From positions 1-64,000 of the forward strand of contig JBAMJV010008943.1 in NCBI GenBank assembly GCA_037951105.1: a stretch of DNA of 64,000 bases, written 5' to 3'. Positions 11,706 to 63,799 of this stretch are shown in pieces (positions within the stretch are counted from its first letter, which is position 1; each line of letters begins with the position of its first letter). A program made the position numbers and the translations under genes. The notes under the pieces are model-generated. The model made no database searches. It saw only the letters and a program-made list of their open reading frames with translations, and was not told the DNA's origin. The stretch is from Echinarachnius parma. Its lineage: Eukaryota > Echinodermata > Echinoidea > Clypeasteroida > Echinarachniidae.

Positions 11706-11850
11706 GATTATGCGATGATGATCTATGGCTGTGTGAGAGTGGTTTAGAGCATGGCTGTCTGTGGCATGGTATCATCCAGCACTTCCTCTTTCTACACCTT
11801 TCACCGGGCATCACTGATCTTCATCCGATTCAACTTTCCTGTTATTACAA
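11706..11850 (+). pseudogene. Echo of LZTS-like exon 1, with its own ATG
   Basis: A diverged copy of the first coding exon (12005-12370), about 300 bp upstream of it. It keeps the acceptor (tttcag), the leader 'gatctatggctg', the GAGAGTGGTTTAG motif and an ATG at 11751. That ATG opens a frame starting MAVCGMVSSSTSS, compared with MAACGMVSSNTSS in the real exon, and similarity fades after about 30 codons. The frame runs to a stop near 11901 without a matching donor. It is most simply a decayed tandem duplicate; use as an alternative first exon is not excluded. Confidence 0.7.
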
Positions 11851-11872
11851 TACATGAGACAATCATTCTTAT

Positions 11873-11930
11873 TCTCTTGTCGTTGTCTACCAAGCATCTC
11901 TGAGAATCTGCATCCTGTCTACAACTACCC
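11873..11930 (+). pseudogene. Second, shorter echo of LZTS-like exon 1
   Basis: 'taccaagcatctctgagaat' and the following 'ctgcatcctgtctacaac' match 12096-12130 of the real exon (accaagcatctctgatccgcatcccgtcaac). It is out of frame and without splice signals. Confidence 0.55.
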
Positions 11931-12004
11931 TTTATCCCTGAACATTTCTTCTACTAGTATAATTGAGACAATAATGTTCTTTCTCTTCTTGTTGTCTATT
12001 TCAG

Positions 12005-12043
12005 ATGAGGTGTTGATCTATGGCTGCGTGAGAGTGGTTTAGC
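12005..12043 (+). other. 5' untranslated part of LZTS-like first coding exon
   Basis: The exon follows a pyrimidine tract and AG at 12003-12004. An in-frame TGA at 12029-12031 precedes the ATG at 12044, so translation cannot begin further upstream in this exon. Confidence 0.6.
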
Positions 12044-12370
12044 ATGGCTGCTTGTGGCATGGTATCATCCAACACCTCCTCCTCCTACGGCATCCACCAA
12101 GCATCTCTGATCCGCATCCCGTCAACCTCCGGCCTCGCCCCATCGGACCTCGTCCACTCACCCACGGTGGCCCTCTGCAATGGCACCATGGGTAGCACCA
12201 GCAGTCTTCTTGCAGACAGTGGTTACCGTGGCGGCAGCTCCCATTATAGCGACACGACCAACAGCAGCAATAGCAACAGCTCCGTCTTTGAGGAACCCTC
12301 GTCGTTCAATGACGATACTGAGTCTGTCGGCCCACCTAAGCTAACCCCCATCAGTGGAAAGCTGGAAAAG
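12044..12370 (+). CDS. LZTS: LZTS-like exon 1 (residues 1-109)
   Basis: Encodes MAACGMVSSNTSSSYGIHQA and then a Ser-rich segment including SSLLADSGYRGG, reminiscent of the 'DSGR' motifs in vertebrate LZTS N-termini. It ends KLEK at the donor gtaaca, phase 0. Two degraded copies lie just upstream. Confidence 0.8.
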
Positions 12371-15300
12371 GTAACAATATAATATATTGATGGTATGAGT
12401 TTGATGATAATGATGATATGTAGTTACTTTAGGTATAGAGTATGCAGACTTCTCCATAAATGCACAATTATCTCTTTTGCATCCTTTTATAAAGTAGCAT
12501 TAACATTTGAGAAGTTGTCGTGTATTTTCAATAATCAATACCCTATTAAAGTCTGTCCTGTTATTCCAGAATCATAATTGGTTGTTGTTTTTTCAATTTG
12601 ATTTAGCATTAGTTTACCTTCAGGAGATGTGCATGAAACCATGCTCTTCAAAGTTAGAAAACAGTAACAATGAAGAATTGCATACAATGAATGCTTGCCT
12701 TTCCCATTAGTTGACAGTCACGAACTGAAATGTCAGACTCATAAATCAATTCATGGTAGTTAAACAAAAAGAATATGTTGGTACTAATGGCAAAAAACAA
12801 AAGATTGAAGGCTGTATCATTTATATAATTCAAAAATGTATTTTGATATAACTACCCTGCCCATTTAATAATCAACAGGAAAAAGCGTTAAAATATTTTG
12901 ATTAGATCACAAATGATTCATTTTATGCCTGTCAAATATGTAAAGCTTTGCAAGGTGTCGAAACTAATTGCTAGAACATTAAAGAAAGGAAGGAAATAGC
13001 ATTTGTACAAATATTTACTATTTACGTAAAATGTAACAATCTGTAACTGCCCTGAACAATTTTAATCAGCAGAGGAAAAAAAACCTTATATTTTTAATAG
13101 GGTACAAATAATTCTGTTTATGGCTGCCTTAAATAAAACTGCTGTACAAAAGTGTTACTGATTGTGCTAATGGCTGACAAAAGAATGAAGGCCAAAGCAT
13201 GGAGATAATATTAAACACTATCAGCCTAACCCATTTATCATCAGAAAAGAAAAGGTTCCAATATTTGTATCAGAACAAAATGATTCAGTCCATGCTGCCC
13301 TGGCATAAATATAACTTTTACAAGGTGTTGGTAGTCATCCCTAAAACAAAAGGAGGAAGGTCGTAGGATCGTATCTGAGCAGATGGTTGACGAGGTCGTG
13401 CATAGTCAGAGGAAAAGGGACATGAATAATTATAGTGTTGTGACTGTATTTAGGCCCGTAAGGACTAGATACTATGCATCTTTATTGTACCCAGGACACG
13501 TTTTAGGCTGCGACTGAATACAGTACAAGGACGATGGAGTACAGTAGGTAGGAAGGGTGAGAGTACTCCTGAGAAGTACTGTTCAAAGCCCGGTCACATA
13601 TCACCGGATAGCGTAAACGGATGCCCCACGGAGAGTAAAATTGTCAATCCTTTCATCTCCGTTCGTATGCATTTCTTGTCCTTTCCATGTCAGGTGATTG
13701 TACGTTGTTCTATCCGGCGGAATGTTTTGTGCATAAAGCAATGGAGACGACTTTCACCACCCTTAATTTGATTTTCGCAATTTTCTATTCGTGGGGCTTT
13801 TGTTTATATAAGCTATCCCGTGATATGTGACTGGGCCTTCAAGTAGACACTGTATTTCACACATTCTACAGTCACGTTTAATTCATGAATGGAGTTGAGT
13901 GTGAGCTTTATTGATGTACGACAGCTTGTTCTGAGATTAGCACCATGTAAACACATGTACTCTGTCAGTCTTGGCTTGAAGTTCCCTCTTCTGTATTTAA
14001 CTCAATGAACACTTGTACTTTGTCAAATTTTGTACTGTCATTCTTTTCATGAAAGGTCTGTTTCTTCTATGTAATTAATGTTCAGGGTCATTTTCTCATG
14101 TGGGCCTAATGGCTAAACTTTAGCTTTAATTCTACTACAAAACCTATCCAAGGTATGCCAGATTTTCTTTATATTTTAATATTCACAGCCAGTTCCACTA
14201 GCCATTGGCTAGCTGTTTGATTTGAACTTTCATTGAACCTCATCATCCTACTGTAATTCCTGTGCTTTTATTTCGCCTGTTCTTAACACATCAGACCAAG
14301 GAGAAGAAACTGATCAAGCCGATAGCCGTCCGGTTTGCCTCGCCCAACACTTCTCCGACGGACGCGTACGGCAAGCACACCTCCTCCCAGTCTCCGGCGT
14401 TATCGGATACCATAGCAACCTACGCCCACCCGCCCGATATCCTCATGACGAGCCAGAACCATAGTCACGGCTTCTCGGCCGGGAAGCACTTCGGGAGGCC
14501 TCCGACAAAGGCCATGTCGCTGCAGGACATCACTCCTGTCCACCAGCATTTGTTCCGCATCAACGGTCACGGTGGGAACGGACACCACCAGTCCACCCTG
14601 CCACACAACCACAACAAGGAGTCATCATCTCACAGGTAAGAGGCACTTTTCCCCCTTCAAGTTTCCCTTTTCCTTATTCCAAGCTATCAGAACTTGGTGG
14701 GTCCTGCCTGTATCAACTCTATGTGGTTTGCAAAATCTAGTAGGGAACGGTTTGACTAGGCACAGTGAAATTCAGCGGTCTGTGAATTTGCCTCTTTCAT
14801 AATTGCCTTCCATTTTTGCATCAACTCTATATTCCCTGTAGGTCTTTGATGCAGCAGAAGCTCCACCAGGCACAGTCCCTCAACTTCCTCAACAACCGGA
14901 CAAACGGGGGCTGGACCAACAACAACAACAATTACCATGGCAACAACAAGCTTAGCAACAATGGGCGGCATCGCAGCCAGAGCCAGACGACGTATCCCAA
15001 CGACCAGCGCCCCCAACAGTCTGCCAATGTCAGGCAGAACGGGCAGACCAACAATCATCATGCGTCGCAGAAGCAGAGCGACAAGGAGAACGTCTACGTC
15101 CCAGTGTCTGTGTCGTCGATCAGGGACGAGTCCGACATGGCCGAGGAGAACAGGATTCTCAGGAACAAAGTTCAGGTAATTTGCATATATCTTAACCTCT
15201 TGAGTGCCAATGTTGCATACAGTCAAACCTGTGTACAGTGACCACCCAAGGGAAACAGGAAAAGAGACCACTGTAGACTGATGGTCTTTATAGACATGTT

Positions 15301-18300
15301 CTATAACACTGTTTTTCTCTGCAGGGGATCACTTTTGGTGGCCAATATGGGCAGGTTGGCTGCCATAGACAGGTAGCCACTTGACAGGTTTGAGTGTGTT
15401 TGCACTACACAATGCATGCAAATGCCATAGAGCTTGCATCTCAGCAATCAAAGTGTTAATCCCTAGATAAACCAATCTGGAATATTATTTTTGTTCAGAT
15501 GATGAAATTATTTTTCTGCCTGTTCAAAACCTTACTCGACAGTACAATTTAACCTTACCCCATATTGCAAGCCAGTAGGCACTCAATATAATAGCTCATA
15601 TAGCTAATACTGTATGTTCTTTTTTCTCTTTTATAATGTAGAATTCCCTGAAAGAAAGTGCAATTAATTGTATCTACCTCAAATTATGTTGACCCCAGAC
15701 CCAGTGAACCATACCATTATTTCCACTATTTGGCCTTCTGCCTTTATTTTCTAATCACATCAGATTCTATTTTCTTAACTGGTCAGCAGATGAATGGTTG
15801 GCATTGTTCACTCATTTCCTTGTGTGTAGTGCATTTATATGAATTCTCTTCCATTTGTTAGCCAATCAGTGGGTCTGTTAATCCGACAAGAAAATAACAG
15901 TCCCTTATGGCCTTATATAAACTTTTGGAATATTGCAGAACTAGGCCTCCTACATTTTTATTTGATGTTGATGTTTTTATACCACTTCATGACCTGTTCT
16001 AAGGTGAATGCCCAAGCTTGAATAGAATTACTCGGAAAACTGTTTTGCATGCAAATTATCAAATTGTCATTTAAACTAACAGGAGAGTGATCATGAGTCC
16101 TTACCCACTCTTGAAATTATTTGCAGAATAACACTTTATGCCCTGTTGTTTGTCCAGTGAATGCCCTGGCTTGAAAATAATTACTTGGAAAACTGTTTTT
16201 CTGAAGCATGCAAATTATCAAATGGTCAGTTTATCTAACAAGAGAATGAAGAGTCCTCACACTCTTAATGACCTGTTGTTTGTTCGGGATGCCCTGGCTT
16301 GAAAAATAATTACTTGGAAAAACATTTTTTGGTAGTAATTCTAATAATACATGTATGCAAAATATCAATTTTGTTGTTATAAAGGGAACCAAATTTAAGG
16401 TGAAAAGTACACACGTATGGATATATGGAGGGGAAAATGTGGTTTCTTTCCTGCACACATATTTGGTAGTGAAACATAATACACATCATGTTTGTTTATG
16501 ATATATCCATATCATTTGAAACATTTCCCTTTTACCTATTTATCTATGATGCTACTTATCATAAAATGTTAACATAAACAAACTGTGAAATCAACCCTGG
16601 CCATTTTGCACCTGTTGTGTTGATTGATGGCCCCTGTAATGTTGATATGACATTGCCTTAGATACCAAGTCTGATAGAAAACAAGGGGTACACAAAGTAA
16701 TTGTATGATTTATGCAGCAAATATGCGAGATGTGATAAACAATATGTCTTCTGTGCATTTTGATGAAAGGAAAATAGGACACTGTGATGTGGTACAATAT
16801 GATTAATGACGTTAATTTGATATACATACTCTGCCTGATAGGTTGGAACAAATTTATGCTTGAAATGTGATTTATTTATGCAGCGAATGTTTATCTAGCA
16901 ACAAGGAAACAAAATTAAAGTAATTTGTCAACATGAGTGAATACCTAGCAATATATGTGTTTTAGAGAATGCATTTGGAATGATGAATTTCCTTTCTTGT
17001 CAACAAGGATTCATCTTTTTTATGAATGCATATACATGTATATGCAGTGCAGTAGCCTATTGATACAAAATACATTGTAGTATTATTTATTTAGAATTGG
17101 TCATTGATGGGGATTTATTCCAGTGTGACATACATAAGCAGTATATCAGATTTTTTTTCTGTATGACTATGGCAACAATATTGTTTTGGTTAAAAATGAA
17201 GTACATTATCTTGTACTAAAAAAAAAATCAATTTGATTTTGGAATATCACAAGTATATTTGTTGAAAAGATGTATCTATTTAAACAAATCATAAGCACAC
17301 TTTATTTACAAAAGTCCAACATGACCTTACTATAAGCCAATTTTGGTTGATTTCAGTGAGTATTTTCTTTTGTCTGACAGTCTATGCATGTTTAAATACA
17401 AAAGTTAGGTTATTGGTGCTGTCTGGAATTAAAGCAGTGCATATTGAAGAGACTAACTCTTCTAAATTCAATACGGCATGCGATAGTCTGCGATATAAAA
17501 ATCCTATCGCATGAAGTCTGGAGTGTTGCACACAATTACAAGGTGCTACAGGATGTATAATATAGAACGTAAACATTTAAAGAGCATTTAAAACCAAAAT
17601 TGATTTAGCCCTATTCAATCAACAACCATAGAGCTTAACAATTATTAACTGTTTGGTTACAGACTACATGTATAACTAAGATTTGTCTAAAATAGTATTT
17701 TTGGCTTCTAATGGGCTCAGTTCTTGTACATGAAAACAAAATAATGTGGTAGAGAATAAATCGTTGCGAGGCCAGGACAGAGGCACATCAGGAAGCAGCA
17801 AACCACCCAACCAGTGGTCTCATGCGGGTTCATGTGCCGAACCACCAAGCCCCCCTGGTCGCATCCACTAAGGCCCCCCTGGTCACATCAGATGTCATTC
17901 AAAAGTCATCTTTGTTTCTCCTTTGTCTCGGATATGAGGTCCCTCATGCTGCTAACTCATCTGGGCCCTGTGATCTCTGTCTGAGCCTTTTTCCCTTTTA
18001 GTTTTAACTCATCCCTTAAGATTTAAAGACCTTTATCTGAGCTTTTTTCTTCTTTTTAAGACCTTTATCTGAGCCTTTTGTCCTTTTAGTTTTAACTCTT
18101 CCCTTTGGACTTATGACTTTTATCTTCAGAGCCATTTTTCCCTTTTAGTTTTAACTATTTCCTTTAGAGTTATAATCTTTGTTTTAGCCTTTTTTCTTTT
18201 TAGTTTTAACTCTTTCCTTTGGACTTAAGACCTTTATCTGAGCCTTTTGTCCTTTTAGTTTTAACTCTTCCCAGTTATGATCCTTGTTTTAGCATTTTTT

Positions 18301-21300
18301 TCTTTGTAATTTTAACTCTTTCCTTTGAACTTAAGACTTTAGTCTGAGCATTTTGTCATTTTGTCATCCTTGATATGCACAAAACTTGTCCATGGCCTTC
18401 ATCAGAGCCTTTTATTTCCATATTTTCAGGTTACAAAGGAAACTGCGTTTTGAATAGAAGGCAGAATTACTGATAAACTTTTTCTTTTTAATAAAAAAAA
18501 GAGGTTGGTTGTTAACTTTAAAGCCAATTCCTATTCCAGTGAACTCAAACTACTTGTACACGTATGTCATGCAAACAAAATGAAATACTGCCCATATTGG
18601 AATGTATTGTTGTGCAACTATAGACTATGTACATGTACATCAGTACAATTTGGCAAACTTAGCATACACAGAAAAGAAAGTGTTGACCGTACTTTTCGCT
18701 GAATAGTAGGGCCATTCTAGAAATTGTTTAATCCCAACCTTGCTAGTACAATATGTCATGCAATTTTTTTTCTGACGGATTTGTTTAATACATTATATTG
18801 CATTTAATCCAGGGCATTCAGTCTGTTTCTATTTGTGCTCACAGAATAATTGAAAAATAATTGCCTTTTTAGAATATGTGCGGGATGGCAATTGTGCGAG
18901 TGACATTCGGTAAACAAAGGAATTAAAGTGTGATATATTTAAGTACAAACACAGTTGACTATTTGCCTAGTGTTGTACATACATGTATAGCGATTGAGCA
19001 ATGGTAGATTTGCAATAGCTGGTATGAACCAAGTAGCGACGTGCAATCTGCCCATGATTGGTAATTAAGAGGCAGAGAAATGCAAACTGGACTAATTTGA
19101 CAGATCGTTTTGAGTATTAGCTCCATTGGGGACTGACGTCAGCTAAATTGGGACAATCAGTAGGGCACTATAGCGTTTATGACTTCTACTGATTTGTTTG
19201 TTACAGGCTCAGTAAAAACAAGATAGGCAAAGATACAAAACCAACATTTGAACCATACTGTAGCCTGTAGGGATTGATGCAGTTACATTTTTAAAGGTAC
19301 TGGTTAGTTTCGTAACTTTTGTTGTCATGCACACAAATATTTGCTGGATATCAGTTTAACTATAGTATTTGCTTGCAATTTGTGACAATTTCATGGCAAC
19401 TTCTTATGTTTGGCTATTTAGATACACGCATATCATGAAAATGAATGAAATAAAAAGAACACACATATGCTACAGAAGAGCACTATGTACACAACCTTTT
19501 CGTATAAAATCATTCATGATTCATGAACAAAATGTTTGTCTTCATATCATGTTAATTTCCTGCCCAATCTTGTTCCGTATTTCCAGGCCATATGATATCC
19601 ACAGCTTAAAGGTTTAATGCTACTGCATGTACATTAGGTCAATGTTCGCATGTATTTATTCAGGCTCAAAAATAGAATTTTCCCTGAGGTTATACTGTAT
19701 GTGAAAACAGACTGTGCCATATGTTGACATGTTATCAAATGTTTTTTCTTCATTACATTTGAGAATAGTTTTATTAGTATTTGTTTGTTGCCGATTGATT
19801 TTGCTACGACACGTATTCTCCATAGACCCAGGCCTGGACCAGTCCTGAATGGGTTAAAAACTTGTAATAGTATTTATTTAATTAATTAATTGTTTAACTT
19901 GCATGTTTTTCCTTTACTTTTTTTTCCCATTGCTTGCCCCTCAGACCAAGAAGCCACAGGTTTGTAATTTATTGAATTATTAATTTTTGTCCTCTTTTGC
20001 TGTTGCATATTATTTTCGTCATGCCTGGTGCACATTTCCTTCTCTATGGGGAGCAGTTTTGCCTTGCGGTGTTTTCTTTTGTCATTGATTATTTTCATGG
20101 TGTAATTTTTGTTTGTTGTATCTTCAATCTTTCTTATTTTTATGTCAGTGAGCTTTGTTCAATTATTTGAAATATGTTCAATTATTATTTTAGTCAACAT
20201 TTACAATTTTACTTAAAAACAGACGTCTTTAAAATCAGTTTACTGCCAATTTTAATCAAAACAAAACAAAACAAATTCCTTCAACTACGGTGGGGCACAC
20301 TGCACACAGCACAGTTAACTTGCACTTTCTGACATGCATTAATTTTCTTTTGTTTCAATGAATTTCCATTAAGAAAGGGTAAATTAAACTATCTGTGCAA
20401 CAATAATATTTCCTTTGCACTTTTCTTCGATCAGGCAAAAAATATTGCAGATCTAGAAATTGATTTATCTGCCTCTCCCCTGGACTTGAATAGAGCCAAA
20501 TGTTGATACAGTATCAATAAATACGCCTTCCAGATGACAAAACAGGCAGACGTGAATTTAATTTTGCCTTTCCGTGTACATATACATATCGAGTCCGGTT
20601 TTCACAGTCACCTTTCCTGCACAGCATGGTAGCTTTGTCAACTTTACTGCCGCATCATTGCAGCTTACATCAACTAGTCTAGGGGAAATGAGGGAGTAAA
20701 ATTTCAGGGTTTATGTACACAAAATCGATAAAGCCATTTGTACAATTTATCAAATAAAGCTTCCATCGTATATAGCCTTGTATTTTACCTTGCATATCAA
20801 GTTTTATTTTTAAAAGATATGATTACAAGTAAAACATTCTTATTATTTGATTTTGATTTTTTTCAACAGCTTTAATCTCAATTAGTTTGAATTTGTAACA
20901 AACGGCTTTATCGTTGTTTTGGATATAAAAATATGGTTCACTCACTTGATTTCATACTCTGTATTCAGTGCTTCTTTTCAATGTTCTGTATGTTTAGATT
21001 CCTGAATTAATCAGAATAAGATACATCAATTGTTGGATAATCATGGGACACAGCGGCATTGCTACTGTCGAGGCATCATGGTTTTGCTTACTGCTTCATC
21101 ATTGCAATTTCTATTAAAGGGTAGAAGAAGAGTAATATTCTTCAATTATAGCAGGGATTACTTTACTCGATGTCAGAACATCTCTCAGTCCACTCCTAAG
21201 ATAAATACTACTCTCTTTGAGGTTTAAAGATGGAAAAACCTTTGTTGGTCATGCTTGGTCATGCTTGTCCCAGTTGAACGTAAACTAGGACGTAGTGATG

Positions 21301-24300
21301 CCAATGGCCATATTTCCCCATCCGCTGCCAAAAGGAATGTCAAAACCCTTAACGCTATGTTCTTGATTTGAGCAGTAGACAGAGGGCAGGAGAAATTATA
21401 ACACGATGATGTCTATAAAAACCACATGGCCAATAGGCAATGTTAAAATCCTATTGACATCATCATGTCCCAGCTTACATGGCCATCATGCTATGTTGTC
21501 CACATGGCAAACAATTAAGTCCCTATTGACGCCAGGTGGGATTTTGCAAGCCTGCGAGACACTTGTCGCCTACCAGGGGCATAGTCAGAATCAACACATA
21601 TATGAAGGGGCAAAGGGTTAGGGGTTAGGGGGGGGGGGAGGGGTAAGAGGTCACAAAGGGGGTGTGGAGAAGGTGTGCTGCCTTAGCACAAATTAAAATG
21701 GTGGTAATTATTTTTCCCCCAGGGTTTTAAGGGGGGGGGGGGGGGGGTTAGTGAGAAGGGGAATATAAACAGTCAGTTGGTGATGTGATATTTGCTTTGG
21801 TGACAATTAGGGCTCTAATGATGTGATGCCCAATGTCCTTTAAAACTTTTAGTGAAAGTATACATGTTCAATTTAGAACTAGATTAGGGTTTCTAATAGG
21901 GTTAGATATCTTTATCGATTTATGACAAATAATAACAGAGCGATTGTGGCCATGCAGTTTGAATGTTATGGAAGCTGACCACTAATCAGCCCCCTCTTGC
22001 CCCCCGAGCCCCTCTATTCCTACACCACTGTCGCCCACACGTTGGTTTGACTCTCTGGCTTAATTAGTCAACTTGTCATGACATGGACATCGTCACTATC
22101 AAGATCCTTAAGTGGGGTAATCATACCTAATCCCTATTGTACACTTGGTACAGTTAGTACAATGTTATTTTCATAGAGCGGTACTTGAAGGGTTAAACGG
22201 ATATACCCAAGCATGCATTCACAGCTGCCATTTGGTCATCATGCATGTATGCCTTTGTTAAATCGCTAAAGCTATTCACCGATAGCCACTTACAAATGTG
22301 ATATGGGGGATGTACCATTATGCGACAATATTCATTATGGAGTGCGTTTAATTGGATCTGCCATGAAGAATACTGATCATGTTTGTTGTTACTCTGTTAA
22401 TGGACACATTTAAATTTAGCCTTTAGTGGGTCATGTGATTTGATTGGTTGTGTTTAAGGTAAGAACTTTTAATTTGTTTGTATTTTTATGATTATACAGT
22501 AGATGGTGGGTGCAGATTTTATGTTGGTTGCTGTTCTTATTCGTAGGATTAGAAAATATGTAGTCCATGGATGCAGATTTGTATGCTGGCTGCAACCATT
22601 ACAGAAAAAAATATTAGAACTTAAGTTATTGTACTAATTGTACTTGCTATTCTCATTTGATGCTAGCAGATATATGTTTTTGTAAATGATTGGAAAAAAA
22701 CAACTTCTTTTTGTATTCATTGAAAATTGCACTTTGAATTCATATAGGATACTTAATCTCATTGCGATGAGGTAAGACTCATGAGGAATACTAGTATAAA
22801 GTACAATGTATATCCGATTGGCAATATATCAACAGCTATTTGTAATATATTTCAATAGAAGATGAATGAAACATAATTTAATGAAATGAAATACAGAGTT
22901 TGTTTTTATTTAACCTATTACTTATGGGAACCTAGTGGGCCCTGTATCAACTCTATGGGTATTGCAAAATCTAGTAGCGAACAAGATAAATCCATAATTT
23001 AATCCAATAAAAAATGGTTACATGAGTAGGTGGATGAAATAACACTTTATGTGGATCATGCAGTATTAGCTGTTTGCTATCAAATTATGGATGTTTTTTA
23101 ATTGCTTAAATTCTCTATTTTATATGTGTCTGTTTCTACTGGTTTATATGTTAGTTGTTTTTCATATTCCCCCTAAATTTTCTATTACATATCTGTATAC
23201 ATTGTATACCAGTTAAATGTTAGTTCCTAGTGTTTCTGTATTATTGTACACATGAATGTAATGTACATGTAGTTGTGTAAAATGAATGTTAGATATCCTT
23301 TGGTTCTGTCTTTATCACTGTATTTTATTTTGTGGAACATGTTATTAAAACTTTTCTGTGGTTTTTGAGCTGGTAACAATGGAGAATATTTATTATAATC
23401 TAAATAACAAGATCCTTTTATACAGCCAAACCTGTCTTAGTGGCCACCTGTCTATAGCAGCCAAACCTGCCAATAGTGACCACCTGCCTATAACAACAGT
23501 CAAACCTGCCTATAGTGACCACCAAAAGTGATCTCGCTGCAGAGTTGAACAGTTCTATGGAATCTGTCCATAGAGTTCACCTGTCTACAAGAGCCATTTT
23601 CCTTGTTACCTTTAGGTGGTCCCTAAACATAGGATTGACTGCATGTTATTTATAATTATGACCCTTAGTTTCAGCTAGTGAGTTGGACACCTTTTCATCT
23701 GTGTCTCTTTGTCTTTATTAATCAAACATGATGAGTTTTGGAAGAAGAACTCCTCACGTTACATCTTAATCTCTGTATCTATTATTTCAGGACATGAAGC
23801 ATCAGCTTGCGGTGATAAGAGGCGCAATGGAGGTGAACTTTATTGTAATCCTGCATTTGTTAATCCTGTTGTAGTATATGTGACTGATTGTGACAGCAAA
23901 ACCCTGCACTTGTCGGTAATTCATGTTTTGAAGAAATGGGCATTTTAAGTTCACATAATGTGGGTAAAAGACTTATGATTGTAAAATTGAAACACTTGTA
24001 TCTTTGCCAATTATTGACCAATTTGTTAGAACAAAGCATCAATTGAAAGCTCATGGTGAGGCCTTTTATGAAAATCTACTATGTTTTGATTTTTACCGAC
24101 AAGTGCAGGGTTTTGCTATAGCCCCTCACATATTGTACCTGTTTAAACCCTGTCCTCATAAGTTACATAATAATCTCAATATTGATGATTTCAGGACATG
24201 AAACACCAGCTGGTGACGATGCGGGACACCATGGAGGTCAACGAACAGACCATCTTCCAGGTCCACCAGGAGAAGAGGAGGGACTACGAGGCCAACATCT

Positions 24301-27300
24301 CCCGTCTCCAGGGACAGCTCCAGCAGGAGAAAGACGGCAACCAATCACAGACCAGAGCTCAACAACAAGAGGTAAGAAGGATATAATTATATAAATATAG
24401 GGGGAACACACAGATTTTGATGCCAGATTTTGATGCCATCATTATGGAGTATAAAGGAAGAGGGGAATTTCTAGATAATATAGTGTTTCTATAGCCTCAG
24501 TTAAGGATTTTGGGGGTTTTGAGTAAAGGATATGAAAATTTAAATTTAATTTTCTCTATTAGGAGCTTTGTGTTAACACTTTAACCAAACTTTAACTGTA
24601 TTCCTTATTTTGATATACTATTAAAACTATGCGCAGGACATTCCATTAATTTCCAGTGTCACATTAACTTGTTCAGGACTGGTCCCCAAAATGCTCGGGT
24701 TGGTGTCTTTGGAGAATGTTATATCAAATACCTTAACAAATTATTGAATGTGTTAATGAACTACTAAATGAAGTACATCAGCAGTTCATCTGGAGAGACT
24801 TTCTTTCCACCAACAGTCAAATTTTGTTAGAATTTGGAAGAGTTAATTAACTCATAATTGCCTGCTCAGGCAACATAATTTAACTTGTCAATCCGTGTTA
24901 ATTGCTGCTAATGGCTATCTGTTGACAGTTATAATGTGAGGTGATGGTCCCGTTATATAACTACTCCCAGTTTTTATACATGACACACAAGTCGTACAGC
25001 ATCACCAAAAATTTACTTTCGGACCACCATAATTCACTTATGCCAAATCTTATTTGCCCCCAACCACATTTAACATTAGCTTTGGTCGGGGGTCACCCAA
25101 TTCTTGTTTTGGCCAACAAAAAAACGGTTGTTGTATTCATCAGTAAAAACTTTAAAATTCTTCAACAGCCATCTTCTGGAGCTGTCTCCCGACACACCTT
25201 GTGTCACTCTTCAATTATTCCTTAGGGTTTCCTTCCAGACCTATTTGTTCTTTCTTACCCTAACCCTAACCACAGAGGGAGGTTTGATTGCATAAGCCGT
25301 GTAACCACACAGGATATCTAATCACTGGTGCTAATGTCCTGAATCATACGTATATGTCAGCAATGGATTATCCTTAATACCTGAGCATCACTCAGTCTCT
25401 GTTATAACGACTTCCTTTAAGACTCTCAAGAGGCCTTTGTCTCGTGATTGGTTTATTCATATCCAACTAGCGCTTTGCTCATTTTACAGGGGTTAAAGTG
25501 GAACTCTAGTTCAGGCAAATATCTTTTGGAAAACGAGAAGAAAAAATTGCTTGCTGGATTTGGCAAATCATAGTGCACTGCACATTTTCACAGAGAGAAT
25601 AATCACAAAAGGGAGTGTGTGATTGTACACTTTTATTGTGCTGTAGGACATAACCCTTCCAAGCCCTAGGATTTCTACCCACTCCCTCCATCAGTAAGAT
25701 TTTTGGGGCGAGTAAATTCCTTGGGGCAGCGTTTTTTTCTTCATTAAAAAAAAAAATCTGTATGTTGGGCAAAATAAACATGTTAGTTGATAGTCTTGCA
25801 GTAACAAGCCTTCTATGATGATAACAACCAGCTGCTGTTAGCGACCAATGCATGTGCACTCCAAATGGGAAAAGAATATAAACCTACTTTGAAGATGATG
25901 ATTCCACCCCCCCCCCCCTCCTCACTTAATGAAATTAACCTAACACTACAATCCTACAATTACCCTATTAAACTGTTACTGCGTGCCAAAAAAATAATGT
26001 TTCAAATAATAAATTAAAACTTTTAAACAACAGTGTATGTCAGTATATTATCTACTGTTTGCTTTAATACTTTATTTATAATTTGTATATTAAATTAATA
26101 CTATGTTTTAAAGAATGAAATGCACGTACATGTAGCTGTGTGAGGATCTTTCTTTTTGTCATTAAACAGGTGTAAGATTAACACCAATGAGTCAGGCATG
26201 GGTGGAGCGTAGTTAGTGCATTACTGCAATGTAATCAACGAAATTACAAAAGTACAAAGGTGATATGACATAGAATTTCTTTTATATTCCACATCTTGCA
26301 GATCTACAAACTGGAGCAGGACAGAAAACATCTGAGGACAAGACTGGAAGAGATGCAGAAAGAACTGCTAAGAGTCAAGGAACACGGGAAGAAGTTTGAG
26401 GAGCAGAAAACAGTATTAGCTGAAAGCCAGCAGGAAGTCGCAAACAAGAGACACGATGTGAAGCGGTTGGAGGACACTGTGAAACGCACCAACGATGAAC
26501 TCCAATTGGAGAGGGACAATGTGAAAAGACTCCAGGTTGAGCTTGATAAAGTTAGGTTGCAATTGAGCAAAAGGACACACGCTACTGACCAGCAGCATAT
26601 TGTGAGTAAGAAAGATGCAGAACTATCTCAGGTCAGATCCGATGGCAAAAAGGCGGCTGACCAAAGGGACAGCTTGATGCTTAGAGTCAAGAAGCAGGGT
26701 GAGGAGATTGACCGTCTTGGTGCACTCCTCAAGGTCAAGGAACAGGAAACAGCGCAGGAGAGATGTGAGGTCGCATACCTGAAGGAAGTGAATGAAAGGA
26801 TGACCGCGGCTCTCAAAGAGAGAGAGAAGATAGTGCCGACAAAGAGCAGTGTTGAAGGAAGCTCTGCAGGAAATTCTTCAGGTTCTAGGACTGATGTGAT
26901 AGAGCTAGAACTTGGAAGGACTATCGAGAAGCTGCAGCAATTGCAGACGGAGAAGGACATGGAATCCAGCCGTCTACAAAAGAGGATTGCTGAGAAGGAG
27001 AGTGAGATCAAGCGGCTTCAATCGCGGGTACGAGATCGCGGTAGGGCTGTCGACCGCAACAGCGGTGCCGACCAGAAAGCGAGTCCGGCCATTAGACGGC
27101 TGGAACAGGATAAAGTTGACCTACAGGCCAGGCTGGGCAAGAAGGAACAGGAGCTGAAGCAGGTCAGGAACCAGGTCACAATGCTTCAGTCCCAGGGTCG
27201 GCACACCGGTCCCGCTCTCTCCAACTCCATCCTCCAGAAGAAGGAGGGTGAGCTGAAGTCCTGTCAGGAGAAGCTCCACCAGCGCAATGCAGAGATCACC

Positions 27301-27876
27301 TACATCAGGGACAAGCTGGGTGAGCGTGATGCAGAGCTGACTGCCCTTAAGGTCAAACTGGACAGGGTGCAGAGGCAGCACCCTGAGAACGGTCGGAGAG
27401 CAGGCTCTCTGGATCGAGAACTCTCTGGGACGAGGGCAGCCAAGCACCAGCTAGAATCGCAGGTGAAATCTCTGCGCGAGGAGAACTCTCGCCTCAAGGA
27501 GCGGCTCAACAAGGTAGCCCTAGGTGTGAAGACTCTGTCCGAAAGCCACATGAACCTTGCCAAGATGTCCATGGTCCCGTCTGTCCCTGATCGTCCAAAG
27601 TTTGAGCGGACGGACCCGAAGCTAGCGGGCCAGCTCCAGAAGGAGGTGAACGACCTGAAGAAGGAGATGGCATGCCTGAAGGAGGATCGGGATCAGCAGC
27701 TGCAGGAGTTCAGACAGGAGTACGGCATCTGGCAGGAGGAGAAGCAGAGAGTCATCGCCTACCAGAAGCAGCTGCAGCTCAACTACATGCAGATGTGTCA
27801 GAAGAACAAGAAACTGGAGCAAGAGATCCAACAGTTGACCAAAGAACTGGACACCGAGGAGGTCATTCAGTGTTGA
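12044..27876 (+). CDS. LZTS: LZTS/N4BP3-family (Fez1-domain) coiled-coil protein, whole gene
   Basis: Five coding exons (12044-12370, 14295-14635, 14842-15175, 24195-24371, 26302-27876) join in phase with GT..AG introns to give 917 residues. Residues 1-330 are low-complexity (Ser, Asn, His, Gln rich). From about residue 320 to the end the protein is almost continuous coiled coil. The C-terminal signature WQEEKQRVIAYQKQLQLNYM, then KNKKLEQEIQQL, is the conserved end of LZTS1-3 and N4BP3. A paired motif (KKEGELKSCQEKL, then RDAELTALKVKL) matches the 'EISLLKQQL... EIFSLKTQL' repeats of that family. Vertebrate members are postsynaptic, centrosomal or microtubule-linked scaffolds; the role here is inferred from the family. 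The start lacks the Gly-2 seen in vertebrate members with MG starts. This looks like a single invertebrate ancestor-type gene. Confidence 0.85.
12371..14294 (+). other. LZTS-like intron 1
   Basis: No coding signal. The 13587-13837 MITE is the only recognised feature; the rest is AT-rich intronic DNA. Confidence 0.7.
13587..13837. mobile_element. MITE family C, copy 1
   Basis: About 250 bp with inverted ends (AGCCCGGTCACATATCA... TGATATGTGACTGGGCC) flanked by TTCAA at 13582-13586 and 13838-13842. Further copies lie at 29927-30172 and 31610-31834. All share an inner 'ggagacgac... caccgg' segment. No coding capacity. Confidence 0.85.
14295..14635 (+). CDS. LZTS: LZTS-like exon 2 (residues 110-223)
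   Basis: Acceptor cacatcag, donor gtaag. It encodes TKEKKLIKPIAVRF followed by Ser/Pro/His-rich sequence with PPTKAMSLQDITPV. GC-rich codon choice makes it stand out from the AT-rich introns. It leaves two bases (ag) to complete an Arg codon with exon 3. Confidence 0.85.
14842..15175 (+). CDS. LZTS: LZTS-like exon 3 (residues 223-334)
   Basis: Acceptor ccctgtag, donor gtaatt. It encodes an Asn/Gln/His-rich segment (SLMQQKLHQAQSLNFLNNR...) and then, near its end, DESDMAEENRILRNKVQ, the first turns of the coiled coil. Phase 0 at its 3' end. The following 9-kb intron holds no other convincing exon except a possible 15-nt microexon. Confidence 0.85.
15222..15390. repeat. Dispersed 'CCTGTCTATAG' repeat
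   Basis: Begins 'cagtcaaacctgtgtacagtgacc' and ends 'atagacaggtagccacttgacaggttt'. Relatives lie at about 23423-23642, 38944-39060, 45716-45800 and 48608-48795, and a 1.2-kb relative at 54609-55836. Confidence 0.65.
15990..16385 (+). repeat. Three-copy tandem repeat, about 125-145 bp unit
   Basis: Three successive copies share 'aatgcccaagcttgaatagaatta', 'cttggaaaactgtttt' and 'gcatgcaaattatcaaat' with small differences. It is intronic and has no coding function. Confidence 0.75.
17965..18410 (+). repeat. Minisatellite, roughly 55-60 bp unit
   Basis: About seven or eight imperfect copies of a pyrimidine-rich unit built on 'gagccttttgtcc', 'ttttagttttaactctt' and 'ggacttaagacctttatct'. Confidence 0.8.
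18880..19160. promoter_or_regulatory. Possible intronic enhancer block
   Basis: A block free of repeats that contains a perfect CRE palindrome (TGACGTCA, about 19134-19141), an ATGCAAA word and a TAATTAA word. This is inference from site clustering only. Confidence 0.2.
19945..19959 (+). CDS. Candidate 15-nt microexon in LZTS-like intron 3
   Basis: A pyrimidine-rich acceptor (ttgcttgcccctcag) is followed by accaagaagccacag and then a donor-like gtttgt. It would insert TKKPQ in phase 0 between exons 3 and 4 without a frameshift. The similarity to the start of exon 2 (accaaggagaag) suggests it could instead be a remnant echo of that exon. Confidence 0.25.
21731..21747. repeat. Poly-G tract (17)
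   Basis: An uninterrupted G run; a second interrupted G-rich stretch lies at 21617-21645. Confidence 0.95.
23423..23642. repeat. Dispersed 'CCTGTCTATAG' repeat
   Basis: Three internal variants of 'cagccaaacctgcctatagtgaccacc' occur in a row, followed by 'aaaagtgatctcgctgcagag' as in the related copies. Confidence 0.65.
23791..23838 (+). pseudogene. Echo of LZTS-like exon 4
   Basis: After an intact acceptor (ctattatttcag) the first 48 bases repeat the start of exon 4 in the same frame: DMKHQLAVIRGAMEVN compared with DMKHQLVTMRDTMEVN. Similarity stops abruptly after AATG GAGGTGAAC, and the frame soon terminates. It lies 404 bp upstream of the real exon. Confidence 0.8.
23878..24131. mobile_element. 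MITE family D, copy 1
   Basis: Termini 'tgtgactgattgtgacagcaaaac... cacttgtcgg' and 'ccgacaagtgcagggttttgctatagcccctcaca' are inverted repeats. It is about 250 bp and closely related to 48989-49209. It lies between the exon-4 echo and the real exon 4. Confidence 0.75.
24195..24371 (+). CDS. LZTS: LZTS-like exon 4 (residues 335-393)
   Basis: Acceptor gatttcag, donor gtaaga; 177 nt, phase 0 at both ends. It encodes DMKHQLVTMRDTMEVNEQTI and on to QLQQEKDGNQ, a charged heptad-repeat segment at the start of the Fez1-type coiled coil. Confidence 0.9.
24372..26301 (+). other. LZTS-like intron 4
   Basis: No exon, RNA gene or recognised transposon seen. A C-rich run lies near 25907-25918. Confidence 0.65.
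26302..27876 (+). CDS. LZTS: LZTS-like exon 5 (residues 394-917, terminal)
   Basis: Acceptor atcttgcag, 1575 nt to TGA at 27874-27876. It is almost entirely coiled coil rich in Lys, Glu, Gln and Leu. It includes the KKEGELKSCQEKL / RDAELTALKVKL pair and the C-terminal GIWQEEKQRVIAYQKQLQLN motif diagnostic of the LZTS/N4BP3 family, then KNKKLEQEIQQLTKELD. Opposite-strand frames here are shadows. Confidence 0.93.
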   Translation: MYKLEQDRKHLRTRLEEMQKELLRVKEHGKKFEEQKTVLAESQQEVANKRHDVKRLEDTVKRTNDELQLERDNVKRLQVELDKVRLQLSKRTHATDQQHIVSKKDAELSQVRSDGKKAADQRDSLMLRVKKQGEEIDRLGALLKVKEQETAQERCEVAYLKEVNERMTAALKEREKIVPTKSSVEGSSAGNSSGSRTDVIELELGRTIEKLQQLQTEKDMESSRLQKRIAEKESEIKRLQSRVRDRGRAVDRNSGADQKASPAIRRLEQDKVDLQARLGKKEQELKQVRNQVTMLQSQGRHTGPALSNSILQKKEGELKSCQEKLHQRNAEITYIRDKLGERDAELTALKVKLDRVQRQHPENGRRAGSLDRELSGTRAAKHQLESQVKSLREENSRLKERLNKVALGVKTLSESHMNLAKMSMVPSVPDRPKFERTDPKLAGQLQKEVNDLKKEMACLKEDRDQQLQEFRQEYGIWQEEKQRVIAYQKQLQLNYMQMCQKNKKLEQEIQQLTKELDTEEVIQC

Positions 27877-27957
27877 CATGAAGTGGTCATCTAGTGTTTG
27901 TTCTTATGTCTATTTCTAGTACTGGATGTTGCTTTATACCAGAAAGAATTGAGCCGA

Positions 27958-28065
27958 ACTGATTGCAGATATATAACAGAAGACCAAGAAGCTTGAGCAA
28001 GCGGTCAAGCAATTGACCATAGAAATGGACATGTAAAAGCTCATTTAGTGTTGACGTGAGTAGGA
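27958..28065 (+). pseudogene. Echo of the 3' end of LZTS-like exon 5
   Basis: 'taacagaagaccaagaagcttgagcaag... caattgaccatagaaatggacatg... agctcatttagtgttgacgtga' repeats 27797-27882, including the stop-codon region, with frame-breaking changes. It lies about 160 bp downstream in the presumed 3' UTR. Confidence 0.85.
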
Positions 28066-28398
28066 CTAGCATACATGTTGACATCTAGCTGCCATGCTCT
28101 CATGATATTTTCTTCTGTGTACTGTGGTGAACATTCTTTCCAGGAAGTACTGCCAATTATTTTGTAAATGTCTAAATATTTATACAAATGCCAATATGTT
28201 TTGCAAAACTTTCTTGGTATGTACGATGGATTCATGTTTTATTGCAAGATACACGCACATAAGAGACAAAATCCATGTGTCTGGAAATAAGAGTATTACC
28301 ATAAAGGTTCAATAGAAGTGAATATAAATGGAAAAAGATTGGTCACTTAATTGGTTTACCAACCTAACAACACATTTTTTATTATTTGGCTGATGTAG

Positions 28399-28404
28399 AA
28401 TAAA
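28399..28404 (+). terminator. Possible poly(A) signal for LZTS-like gene
   Basis: AATAAA, about 520 bp after the stop codon. No obvious earlier AATAAA lies in the 3' flank, so it is a plausible but unproven end of the transcript. Confidence 0.4.
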
Positions 28405-29926
28405 ATTAAATCAAAATTAGTGTTCAGTGAACTTGCGTGGATCCTGTACGCTAGGTAATTGCAACCTGCTGGTGTGGAGAAAAGTATGTAGCTGTCATTC
28501 TGAAGTGTCAGAGACGCCATTTTTTTCAGCCCTTTACCATTCCAATTCATTTTCATTTGGTATCAATGCAACATTGTTGGTTGTTCATTCTATAAAATGA
28601 TGTTTCTGGTTCGAAAGCTGCCATTTGTTTATAAAATCTCTCACATTAATTTATGGGCATGAAACTGACCTGGGTTGTCGTAGCTCATATTCAAATTTCA
28701 GACAACTCTAAAATTGACCTCCAACAGAGAGAGAAGTGCTGCACGCTAAAAACAAAACAAACAATAACTGTTAAATATTTGGCAATTTAAAACAAGGTAT
28801 TAATTCAAATACAACTCAATGAATGTATTTCTATATATCAGATTATGGACGATATGGGTGGTTTATGCAAGTATTCAAAGTTTTCCAAGTATAATATTGT
28901 TACCTTCAGACAGAGAATGTAGAGGTAAACTGATTTGTTGTTAACCCAAAATGCCTACGGGAACCGAGTGGGCTATGTACAAAGTGTATGGGGATTTCAG
29001 AATCTCGTAGGGATCGGATTAAATGATGGGTACTCGTACATACAGGGTTGCAAGGCAATGTCACATTGTTTTGTGATACACACAAACAGTTGGTATTACT
29101 ACGTGTATAATAAAAAATGTTTTGTATTGTATTCTATTATGCAAGTTGAAGAAACGGTATATGGTCAAGTCTTCCATTTTGATGTCGTTTCATAGCTACA
29201 TTACAGTTACATTATTACAGTATGCTGTATATGTTCAACATTCATATTTCCTCCATATTGCTATTTATTTATTTTCTGTTCAACTCACTCACATAGGTAT
29301 ACTCATACTTTGTATAGCTGGGGAGGAAAATATATATTGCCTGTATATATATATTATTTTTTCAGAACACGTCTGATGATCATGAACGTTAAATGTTTCC
29401 AGTTGGTAGTAGTATTATTGTTCTTTCCAGCTTTCATGCCAGGTATTTAAAAGGTTGTATTTATTTTATTCCAAGAATAAGCATGGTGTTTTATTCTCTA
29501 TCAGCTGTGAACATTTAGGAATATTTCAAGTTCTAAAATGGTCAATGATTTATTGATTTTTATCATGAGTAGCCTCATGAATACTTGATTTAAAGTCTTA
29601 AACCACAGCAAGTTGTTTACCAACTAGTTCATATATGTACCCTCCAATATTGATGGTATTCACGAATGTTACTGTATTAGTATATTGAAGTATTACTCGT
29701 TCCAATTTATAGTAGTTTATATCTCTTTACAAAATGGTTAGCATTTTGACATGGTATTTCATGTAGAATATTCATTATTATGGTGCTGAGGTGACGTACG
29801 AGATGAAATAACACGTTACGATTTAGCAGTTTAGTGTATGTACAATAAACATGTATATCCATATCTCAATCTCAGAATTTTCAAGATATACTGTACTATA
29901 GTTGTACATGAAGTTTCACTGTTTAA

Positions 29927-30172
29927 GGCCCGGTCACATATCAACGGATAGCGTAAACGGAAGACCGACGAATTACATTTTTTCGAAATCAAATTTTCCG
30001 TTGGTGAAAGTCGTCTCCATTGATTCATGCAAAAAAGATTCCACCGGATAGAATCACGTACATCGCCTGACCAGGAACGGACGAGAAACGCATACCAACG
30101 GAGACAAACGAATTGACAATTTTCTCTCCGTCGGGCATCTGTTTACGCCAATCGGTAGTATGTGACCAGGCC
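29927..30172. mobile_element. MITE family C, copy 2
   Basis: Begins GGCCCGGTCACATATCA and ends TATGTGACCAGGCC, flanked by TTTAA on the left and TTTTAA on the right. Its centre carries the same 'cggagacaaacg' and 'gtcgtctccattg' segments as copies 1 and 3. Confidence 0.85.
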
Positions 30173-31189
30173 TTTTAAGATGTAGAGTAAGACACAAAAT
30201 GGCGATAGCTTTACTGATTGTATGCATAATATTTCAACTTTCTTTGTGGTTGCAAAAAAATTCTCAAAACTTTCAAAAACTTTTTCAAGAAATCATATTT
30301 TGCCACTTTTGGTTGTTATTTGAGCTGAATGATTGTGCATTTGTAGTGTTATCACTAGTTCCTTTCCAAATCTTGTGATTATTCATTTTATATTCTTTCC
30401 ACACAAGTAGAAGTTTATCTCGTATTAAGTTCCTTTTTACCACAATCCCTAGTTGAGATTCTCTGTTTTGTGCACAATTTAATGTCAAGATAGGATACAA
30501 CTTTGCATTGTACTATTACTGAACTTCATTCTCCATGACTGCCAAACATATATATATGTTCTGCCATGGCGTAAAGCCTGCATGGTGTAAATACAGTATT
30601 GGTTTATTCAGCGTTGTGTAATGCGATTTTTTTTTTTTTTTACTGCATCATATTTGTACAAATATATCCATGACGATGAGCCTTTATCACTAAGAGAATG
30701 TGGAATTTTAAAATGTTGCTTGACTGACTAATTCGATTGTGACTGCCACACTTTTGGTCAGAATTGTTCGCAATAGGAATTAATTATTTGTCCCTTTAGA
30801 ATCCCTCAACCCTCAAATATATTTTGACTTGATTAATTGAATAGTTAAAAATGTTTAAAACAAGTGTTGTCATTTTTAAAACATAATTGATAGAGACATT
30901 TCATATTAACTGTACTGTTGGACCAAACTTTGCCAAACTTTGTTAATTTGTCAAAAAGAAACCCTTCTTGTAATACTTATATCACCTCTGTGAATATGAT
31001 AAATATATAAGAAATAGTTTGAGGGAGAAGACAAACTTGATCCTCAAAAATGTGTTAAACTCTAGAATGAAAAAGAGTATTGATTGTAAATAAAAACTTT
31101 TATATTGCAAGTTTTTGTGAACATGGATAAGAGGCACATTATTTGCTATATACTGCAGTCATTCCAGAATCCATATATTTTCCAGTGTG

Positions 31190-31266
31190 ATAAACATTAC
31201 ATTTACAGAAAAACATAACATTTACAGAAAACATTACATTTACAGAAAACATTACATTTACAGATA
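31190..31266 (+). repeat. Short tandem repeat, 18-bp unit
   Basis: About four copies of 'aaacattacatttacag' with minor changes. Confidence 0.85.
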
Positions 31267-31305
31267 ATGTAAATAAATGGTTTTATTTATATTTTCTTAA
31301 AAGCA

Positions 31306-31431
31306 GAGCTTGCCCTTAGTAGTGGCAGAAATGTCATTTGGCCACTAGAATCTCGCAGTCTATGGTGGGCCGTCTATCTGATGTGTCATTTTGGTGACCT
31401 GAAGGAAAAACTATAAAGGGATAGCCCTGTT
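31306..31431. repeat. Dispersed 'GGCCACTAGAA' repeat
   Basis: Shares 'gcttgcccttagtagtggc', 'catttggccactagaa' and 'gacctgaaggaaaaact... gggatagccc' with 41526-41711, and its second half with 38620-38680. Confidence 0.6.
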
Positions 31432-31609
31432 TAGATTGTTTTTGCATTGTAAAGGCTCTTGTATTTTGAGTGTAAATCATGCTTAGTTTAATTGATTGAG
31501 CTCATGTGAAGTAGCAGAATGTGAAACAGGTTGTAGATTAAATGTTTGCATTTATATGTGACATTGATTCATTTTCAAGAACAGCCTGAATTGATCACAC
31601 CATTTTATA

Positions 31610-31834
31610 GCCCGGTCACATATCAACGGATTGCGCAAACGGATGTCAAACGGAGAGCTAAATTTTCCATCCGTTCTATACGTTTCTTGTCCGTTCCTTG
31701 TCCGGTGATGTACGTTGTTCTATGTTTTGTACATGAAGCAATGGAGACGACTTCCATCACCGGATAATTTAATTTCGCAAATTGTCTATTCGTTGGGCAT
31801 ACGTTTCCGATATCCGTTGATATCTGACCGGGCC
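31610..31834. mobile_element. MITE family C, copy 3
   Basis: Begins GCCCGGTCACATATCAACGG and ends TTGATATCTGACCGGGCC. It is the shortest of the three copies, with 'ggagacgacttccatcaccgg' inside. Confidence 0.85.
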
Positions 31835-32536
31835 ATTAAGATGACACTTTGTAATGGTGGTCACTCTTAAAATACTGTTCATATACTTTTATGTGTTACC
31901 GTACAAGTATAATGTACATTTTGTTTTGTTTTTACTTATAGTTGTTTTTAACCTTCTATTACATTGTACAATTCAGGTTTTTCCCTTGCAAAAACCCATT
32001 TATTACATAGCATCTCAGTTATTCCTCCCATCATATTGTAATCATTTTATACCATGTTTATGTACAAATATTTTTTCAATATATTTTTGTCAAATAGTGT
32101 AAACATATGTACATTTATATAGTAACCTTGTATTATTTATGCTATACAGTAGGTTTATTTTGTTTTTGTTATTAAATCACATGGGCCCAAATTCTCAACA
32201 GTGGATGAAATTTATCCCTTGGTTGGAAATGAAAATTGTCTCACATTATGTCATTTTTAGTATTTGATGGAGTACCTTCTACTCATTTTCATTACCAACT
32301 GTGTGTTAGATTTAGCCCATAGACTAAAATAACATTTAATTTGATCCTCTGATGAGAATTTTGGCTAATATGTCCTGACAAGAAGCATTGGTCTCTGACC
32401 ATATACCATGTCACTTTGAACCCCTGCCATTCATGTTTCAAATAAAGGAAATATTGAAACAATTATTAAACCCTTGTGATTTTTGTAAGTGATTTATAAT
32501 GGCATGAAATTATTGTATGGATTATAATGTGAATAA

Positions 32537-33140
<604 letters not shown>

Positions 33141-33965
33141 GATGATGTTCTGATCATGATAAAACTTCAAACAAAGTGAAAAATACATGTACAAGGACCA
33201 TGTTTACAATCGGTTTAAATTTAATGCAATTAGTTCACACAAAACATTTTTTTTTTCATCAAAAAATTAAGCTTATTGGATTAATTAAAGGGATAGTTGA
33301 GTATTGGTCAAACTTAACTTTAGTAACCAAACCTGCACCATTATGGTACAAAGTAATAGTTATAACTTCACCATGCTCGAAAAGTATACATAATTACAAA
33401 CGACTGTAAAACCCCTGTTATCATTCAAAAAGAGCCGTTACAACTCAAGAGGGCGCTATTTAAAAAAATCATTGGTTTTAGCCTTTTTTCATACATAATT
33501 GTGCATTTAATGTTTGTTAAAATAATGATTCAATAGAGATATCATCAACGACTTTTTAAAAACCTATTCAGTTCAAGCATTTTTTTTAAAAAGTCTAAAA
33601 AGTCTAAATATCGCCCGGTGATGGCCGGTGTGAACTATTTTGAATACAAATATATTTATGGATATTTCAGCCGTTTCTGAACCGATTTTGATCAAATAAA
33701 GTTTATTCTGTCATTCAAATTGTATGTTCTTTCGAATTTGACAGTCAGTTTTTCATTATCTCACAAAAAAATATCGGGGGAAATACCAATACTCAACACT
33801 TCCTTTAAATAATGCCAACTACATGGAATACATCATCATATTTTAAGTTATGTCCTAATAGGAACTGAAGGATTAAATCATTATTTTGAAAAGAAAGTGG
33901 GTATAGAAACTGCAAAATGACAATCAAATATCTCAACCCAGGCCCGTAGCCAGGGGGGTGTGTTT

Positions 33966-34570: not shown

Positions 34571-34571
<1 letters not shown>

Positions 34572-37024: not shown

Positions 37025-63799
<26,775 letters not shown>

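Follow-up and report, generated by a model that had tools for sequence, protein, structure and literature searches.

The window and its genes

The DNA analysed here is a stretch of 64,000 nucleotides from Echinarachnius parma, referred to as the window (contig C8927:1-64000), and genome searches were performed on a 1.2-Gb assembly of 14,790 contigs. Two genes are located on the + strand of the window, a Fez1/LZTS-type gene of 5 exons extending from 12.0 to 27.9 kb, and a TRPM channel gene extending from about 38.76 to 63.8 kb, of which 20 exons were found. The exon models (5 LZTS and 20 TRPM exons, 6831 bp) combine protein matches, open frames and splice sites. The LZTS exons are designated L1 to L5 and the TRPM exons T1 onwards, starting at 38762; the TRPM exon numbers used in a preliminary description of this DNA correspond to the T number + 2. 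The start of T19 was entered in the computations as 62330, one base off 62329.

The window also contains remnants of mobile elements. The segment 37957-38455 is taken from its motifs to be a Tc1/mariner-type transposase remnant; a few bases after its stop codon come a stem-loop of the histone 3' type (Rfam RF00032, 36.6 bits, E 5e-7) and an AGAAAGA element rich in purines. The stem-loop unit occurs as a tandem pair (38327-38384 and 38396-38455). It would be unusual for a DNA transposon to possess an mRNA end of the histone type, and a literature search for such a combination found nothing. The segment 59269-59862, on the - strand, is presumably a non-LTR reverse-transcriptase remnant, as judged by motifs. 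A dispersed inverted-repeat element occurs at 13585-13842, 29922-30174 and 31609-31848, and the stretch near 30000-30200 has at least about 40 relatives in the genome at 82-89%.

Partial exon copies in the window

Self-comparison of the window shows that 12 of the 25 exons (9/20 for TRPM and 3/5 for LZTS) possess same-strand partial copies within 3 kb, hereafter called echoes (Table 1). Depending on how the copies are grouped, the total number of same-strand families within this distance is 22, both in the local self-comparison and in a list grouped by hand, or 23 when a different mask is used, and 12 of them always touch an exon, namely L1, L4, L5, T1, T3, T4, T5, T6, T16, T17, T18 and T19. 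Microsatellites were masked before counting (18 stretches in the window and, in the other mask, all units up to 25 bp), and the transposon pair 29922/31604 was retained among the non-exon families. Chance as a source of the echoes was ruled out by a control made with the reversed, non-complemented window, which yielded 0 pairs versus 46 direct pairs at 45 bits or more, and 3 versus 54 at 35 bits. A putative T11 echo near 49829 was dropped, its score of 16 falling short of the highest control score, 22. Inverted local pairs of at least 35 bits number 26 in the window, none touching an exon, and none of the inverted pairs of at least 40 bits found across 12 regions touches an exon either. In a tile test, an inverted local match (score 28) occurred in 1/104 tiles consisting of at least half exon and in 3/46 tiles containing less.

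The echoes of the window are thus confirmed as real. The preliminary description had named the same 12 exons (TRPM 3, 5, 6, 7, 8 and 18-21 in its own numbering, and LZTS 1, 4 and 5), and had assigned to each copy an acceptor or a donor side that agrees with the alignments; the single orientation it had reported is found in 12/12 exon families, and its statement that no echo comprises a complete exon with both splice sites held in the aligned pairs. Local copies are not limited to exons, 10-11 families of the window occurring without any exon. The copies it had reported next to T4 form a 207-bp array with seven GTAAGT donors, one real and six ghost. In this array the exon (first unit) and the last unit agree in sequence version, and most of the units between them carry a second version, as in an array that would have grown from the middle. 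T4, where one acceptor precedes seven GTAAGT donors spaced by about 207 bp, offers a natural test of donor choice. The spacer between the L4 echo and its exon holds a dispersed element (23895-24133, with a relative at 49002-49212), and another dispersed element (56952-57322) sits between the T17 echoes and exon T17; the distances from echo to exon are therefore partly stretched by insertions.

Table 1. Echoes of the window and the exons from which they derive
Feature	Position	Strand	Basis or identity
LZTS exon 1 (5'UTR + start)	12005..12370	+	splice sites
LZTS exon 1 echo, acceptor side, upstream copy of 11997-12126	11699..11834	+	81% over 128 bp
LZTS exon 4	24195..24371	+	exon model
LZTS exon 4 echo (acceptor + 48 bp)	23751..23838	+	74% over 90 bp
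LZTS exon 5 (Fez1 domain, E 5.9e-28)	26302..27876	+	exon model
LZTS exon 5 echo, 3' end, stop-codon side, downstream	27937..28059	+	74% over 124 bp
TRPM exon T1 (exon 3 of the preliminary description)	38762..38930	+	exon model
T1 echo, acceptor side	38550..38617	+	70% over 71 bp
TRPM exon T3	40801..40998	+	exon model
T3 echo, acceptor side with intron flank	40568..40736	+	65% over 201 bp
TRPM exon T4	41757..41931	+	exon model
T4 207-bp tandem array (3' 65 bp of the exon + donor + intron)	41867..43411	+	
TRPM exon T5	45033..45201	+	exon model
T5 echoes (two), donor side, 206-bp unit	45278..45681	+	86% / 81%
TRPM exon T6	46120..46331	+	exon model
T6 echo, acceptor side	45864..46028	+	88% over 166 bp
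TRPM exon T16	56094..56271	+	exon model
T16 echoes (three), 5' side	53965..54578	+	68-81%
TRPM exon T17	57372..57504	+	exon model
T17 echoes (three), acceptor side	56434..56945	+	self-comparison
TRPM exon T18	58452..58642	+	exon model
T18 echo, donor side, 196-bp unit	58735..58908	+	80% over 174 bp
TRPM exon T19	62329..62461	+	exon model
T19 echoes (three), acceptor side	61772..62196	+	67-79%

Recurrence in other genes and on probable haplotype contigs

To avoid the bias of a window chosen for its echoes, independent genes were picked by protein family. A genome search for the TCP1 family gave 63 matches, and nine gene regions (151 kb) were fetched and submitted to the same comparison. Local direct partial copies accompany 21/52 of the TCP1/CCT exon matches, with no inverted pair touching an exon, and 4/6 exon matches of one adaptin gene are echoed as well; in both cases the exons are profile matches, some exons of these genes being unlabelled. 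The repetition across other genes proposed in the preliminary description thus turned out positive, and the echoes are a recurrent feature of this genome. A probable haplotype contig of the adaptin gene (C4320, included in the histogram of unit lengths and excluded from the exon counts and the age table), 89-96% identical in the aligned stretches, carries these four echoes as well. Similarly, the T6 echo is also present in C9285, a probable haplotype contig of the window of which 3.8 kb were compared. No counterpart of the segment 45317-45870, in which most of the T5 echoes lie, is present in this stretch of C9285, which does not include exon T5. The 0.64-kb element 46646-47289 is also absent from it; this element is palindromic, with dozens of genome matches at 99-100% among the matches listed, and represents a very recent insertion.

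Both haplotypes of some loci are apparently kept as separate contigs, 89-99% identical where compared, which permits polymorphism tests. Such an assembly might be suspected of creating echoes by misassembly or by collapse of haplotypes. Most copies are only 62-93% alike, below the identity between haplotype contigs, a few young arrays being closer, and the T6 and the four adaptin echoes were found again on separate contigs; since echoes recur in this way they are not assembly artefacts, and the probability left to such an origin is negligible.

Geometry of the copies

In 12/12 window families and 20/20 aligned pairs, copies of the 5' part of an exon lie upstream of it and copies of the 3' part downstream, two copies of the T4 array being taken in the alignments and L5, as the last exon, showing its stop-codon side. 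The side predicted from tandem duplication was likewise found in 24/24 CCT exon-side cases (P 1.2e-7). Tandem duplication of a segment [a,b] with b inside an exon would leave the whole exon in the second copy and, in the first, an upstream half-exon with its acceptor; with a inside the exon, a half-exon with its donor would end up downstream. With one breakpoint in the exon, an intact exon therefore survives and the half-copy has one splice site, so that the geometry of tandem duplication accounts for the single splice site, the constant strand and the lack of complete exons. The length of the unit together with selection would explain why complete-exon copies do not occur.

Contiguous units measure 207 bp in T4, 206 bp in T5 and 196 bp in T18, and homology extends over nearly the whole unit in these three exons and in several CCT cases. 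Each aligned echo of the window and of the CCT pairs contains at most one splice site, together with gaps and some in-frame stops. Tandem duplication of mutually exclusive exons was rejected, the echoes lacking the pair of splice sites and the open frame of such exons, and decayed whole exons were rejected too as the origin of the echoes. Retroposition, as in processed retrocopies, was discarded because the echoes carry a splice site and often intron flanks and adjoin their source, and intron gain inside an exon because the copies occupy introns or flanks that were already there and adjoin exons that are intact.

Decay, conversion and selection

In the window, the differences between echo and exon at codon positions 1, 2 and 3 amount to 79/515, 64/514 and 132/517, respectively (chi-square P 6e-8), and the Jukes-Cantor ratio of codon positions is 2.03, a neutral copy of a constrained source being predicted to give 2. 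The corresponding CCT differences, from 24 aligned pairs picked by hand as main matches, are 64/583, 42/586 and 133/582, and their ratio near 2.8 exceeds what neutral decay allows. Between haplotypes, divergence reaches 11/467 in echoes, 27/827 at third positions, 351/10887 in introns and 3/1652 at exon positions 1+2. When the adaptin haplotypes are aligned globally, the values are 14/301 for echoes, 21/402 for third positions and 430/4721 for introns, the last figure probably raised by misalignment. The CCT ratio and the adaptin alignment hint at a rate of evolution below that of neutral DNA for the echoes; strong selection on them is unsupported, and mild constraint is possible.

In 19 echoes, selected for a match that ends at the exon edge or close to it, the exon parts are 73-92% alike, whereas in 17/19 the similarity over the next 90 bp does not exceed that of shuffled sequence. 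This loss of similarity past the exon edge is not predicted by decay at equal rates; a faster decay of introns (rate 1.5, with indels at 0.27 per substitution) could produce it. Both this abrupt edge and the elevated CCT ratio would fit gene conversion in which the exon repeatedly overwrites its counterpart in the echo and the intron half is left to drift. Five exon/echo pairs compared across haplotypes show, however, 0 conversion-like sites versus 47 old shared differences, and conversion appears improbable.

The echoes might also be selected as splicing decoys, or represent decayed mutually exclusive exons. Many of them keep an AG or a GT, all seven donors of the T4 array read GTAAGT, and echo divergence between haplotypes lies a little below that of third positions. 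However, it stays near third positions and far above exon positions 1+2, and the single splice site, the gaps and the occasional in-frame stops of the echoes further reduce this alternative to a very slight likelihood.

Excess of exon-touching families

A placement null for the window expects 5.7/22 families to touch an exon versus the 12 found (P 0.0023 by circular shift and 0.0007 by independent placement). Taken alone, the TRPM region shows 9/13 for a null of 6.0 (P 0.05-0.08) and the LZTS region 3/6 (P 0.2). Over 223 kb, 41 families touch an exon and 50 do not, whereas uniform placement, in a prediction that includes selection against whole-exon and within-exon events, gives 10.7%, with a rate ratio of 6.9. 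Counted as 130-bp tiles, a local direct copy exists for 19/104 exonic and 110/779 non-exonic tiles, a difference that nearly vanishes because the echoes themselves count as non-exonic tiles. A high G+C content was discarded as the driver, intron-only families being not significantly richer in G+C than the background (P 0.32 for n=10 and 0.26 for n=37).

The excess could reflect ascertainment alone, with duplications arising uniformly and those linked to exons remaining recognisable owing to a conserved partner and fast introns. Duplications spiked into the real window are recoverable 1.35x longer at exons, and the exon advantage ranges from 1.24 to 2.00 when the indel rate measured between haplotypes is used. 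In the same direction, the intron parts of many units have faded, the introns open 0.27 indels per substitution between haplotypes, the tile counts differ little and the excess weakens in the youngest class. Source conservation accounts for up to twofold of the exon excess; as the whole explanation it failed against the spike-in tests and the other genes. When the geometric chance is doubled, P remains 4e-7 over all ages, 0.007 at an exon identity of at least 85% and 0.15 in the youngest class (10 exon-touching versus 23 other families, P 0.0018 undoubled), in an age-matched table that assumes equal neutral rates for introns and silent sites and whose thresholds would shift with faster introns.

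Forward simulations combining conserved exons, neutral introns, indels (also at high rates) and transposon turnover produce 15-27% of exon-touching families versus 52-55% in the window. No replicate reached 12 exon-touching families (0/120) or a share of 0.545 (0/72), and the highest share over 60 replicates was 0.34, the window showing 12/22 or 12/23. Scaled to the density of intron-only families, the simulations predict echoes at 10-11% of exons in the window versus 12/25 (P 2e-6 to 5e-6), and at 14-15% in the CCT and adaptin genes versus 25/58 (P 5e-8 to 3e-7); doubling the predictions gives P 0.003-0.004 for the window and 0.016-0.028 for the CCT and adaptin genes, all these values treating families as independent and the window, unlike the CCT and adaptin set, being preselected. 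Pure ascertainment is accordingly regarded as unlikely.

Since the excess exceeds the spike-in advantage, some bias of copying towards exon borders is needed, less supported at the youngest ages. This residual bias, about threefold or more over geometry and detection, is supported statistically, best at intermediate ages and most weakly in the youngest class. Two readings had been offered in the preliminary description. The first, that DNA is copied locally with a preference for exon borders, gains from the residual excess beyond the spike-in and loses some ground in the youngest class. The second, duplication everywhere with exon parts recognisable for longer, is correct insofar as 50 intron-only families exist and exons enjoy an advantage of 1.24-2.0, but falls short of the 6.9-fold excess over geometry. 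The favoured form of the first reading is the tandem duplication of units of about 190 bp with a breakpoint in mid-exon.

Unit length and mid-exon breakpoints

The smallest offset falls at 180-220 bp in 23 and at 140-180 bp in 9 of 45 exon families, both adaptin contigs included, and intron-only families peak at 140-180 bp (15/51). With one adaptin contig, the median of units up to 300 bp is 188 bp in exon families (n=36) and 151 bp in intron-only families (n=37, P 0.0015), and units of 140-230 bp represent 29/41 and 23/50 of the families, respectively. Simulation with log-uniform lengths gave no such peak. For 36 exons (11 from the window and 25 from other genes, one side per exon, L5 excluded), the exon portion of the echo measures 92 bp (SD 33), or 0.50 of the exon (SD 0.16), the ends of the CCT and adaptin exons being derived from a splice-site matrix and some of them doubtful. 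Uniform breakpoints simulated through the same pipeline have a SD of 0.25 (Levene P 0.003, KS P 0.13). Upstream echoes outnumber downstream ones, 26 vs 10 (P 0.011).

The unit of about 190 bp and the mid-exon breakpoints suggest the duplication, from dyad to dyad, of one nucleosome repeat. Exons are generally known to carry positioned nucleosomes. If each exon bears a nucleosome, lagging-strand (Okazaki) ends could coincide with its dyad, in the middle of the exon, and errors involving flaps or template switching might duplicate one nucleosome repeat from there into the intron. That exons become hotspots of duplication through their chromatin in this way is a tentative idea, possible rather than probable. 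If true, a single process would account for the unit of about 190 bp, for the distance of 92 bp (SD 33) between breakpoint and splice site and for the residual exon excess, and genes would shape their own mutation map through their structure.

Proposed origin of the echoes

The strand, the geometry, the unit size, the near-neutral decay, the presence on probable haplotype contigs and the recurrence in unrelated genes are observed features of the echoes. They are probably the outcome of frequent tandem duplications of about 190 bp, which, when their breakpoints fall in an exon and in the neighbouring intron, would leave one intact exon and a decaying, nearly silent half-exon with a single splice site. 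Such a half-exon could not be defined as an exon and would be removed with the intron; the duplication would be close to silent because the half-exon leaves with it. The copy would then be fixed by drift and decay at or somewhat below the neutral rate, the source exon staying conserved, whereas duplications within an exon or of a whole exon would mostly be purged by selection.

Comparison with known systems

Local, same-strand copies of exons inside genes, as found here, are known from tandem exon duplication and mutually exclusive exons (PMC9013439, PMC12343006), and Exonize distinguishes 'partial', 'inter-boundary' and 'intronic' classes of exon duplications (PMC12343006). In the sections cited, both works centre on full or expressed duplicates, whereas the present copies consist of parts of exons with one splice site and decay as non-coding DNA. 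Copies with at least 80% identity are reported for 2% of exon bases in human, 0.08% in fly and 0.06% in worm (PMC9013439); the corresponding figure for the window is 718/6831, from a hand-made list covering 7/12 families and a search that differs from the published one. Intron gain by tandem genomic duplication (PMC3296678) similarly relies, as described there, on a short genic duplication whose surplus is spliced out, as proposed here, but no new intron is created in the present case, an existing intron absorbing the surplus half-exon. The Okazaki-linked flanking duplications of FEN1/rad27 mutants have their breakpoints at the midpoints of nucleosomes and a median length of 148 bp, and the loss of rad27 also increases tandem duplications (PMC13334657). 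That work deals with inverted triplications in yeast and tumours, whereas the echoes are direct duplications in an animal genome. No description of the echo pattern was found in open-licence papers; in a pattern search of viral contigs one match failed confirmation, and a further search gave none. The kind of event is already known, and what is new is the density, the near-constant unit and the exon-centred breakpoints.

Biological significance

Echoes can mislead gene prediction, and they are material from which ghost splice sites, pseudo-exons and new isoforms can arise. Should about 40% of exons have partial copies, the introns of this lineage would document short tandem duplications densely, in a record invisible to exon-based annotation. 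Whether exon borders or nucleosomes set the starts of the duplications can be tested in any such genome, and gene structure may steer where DNA is copied.
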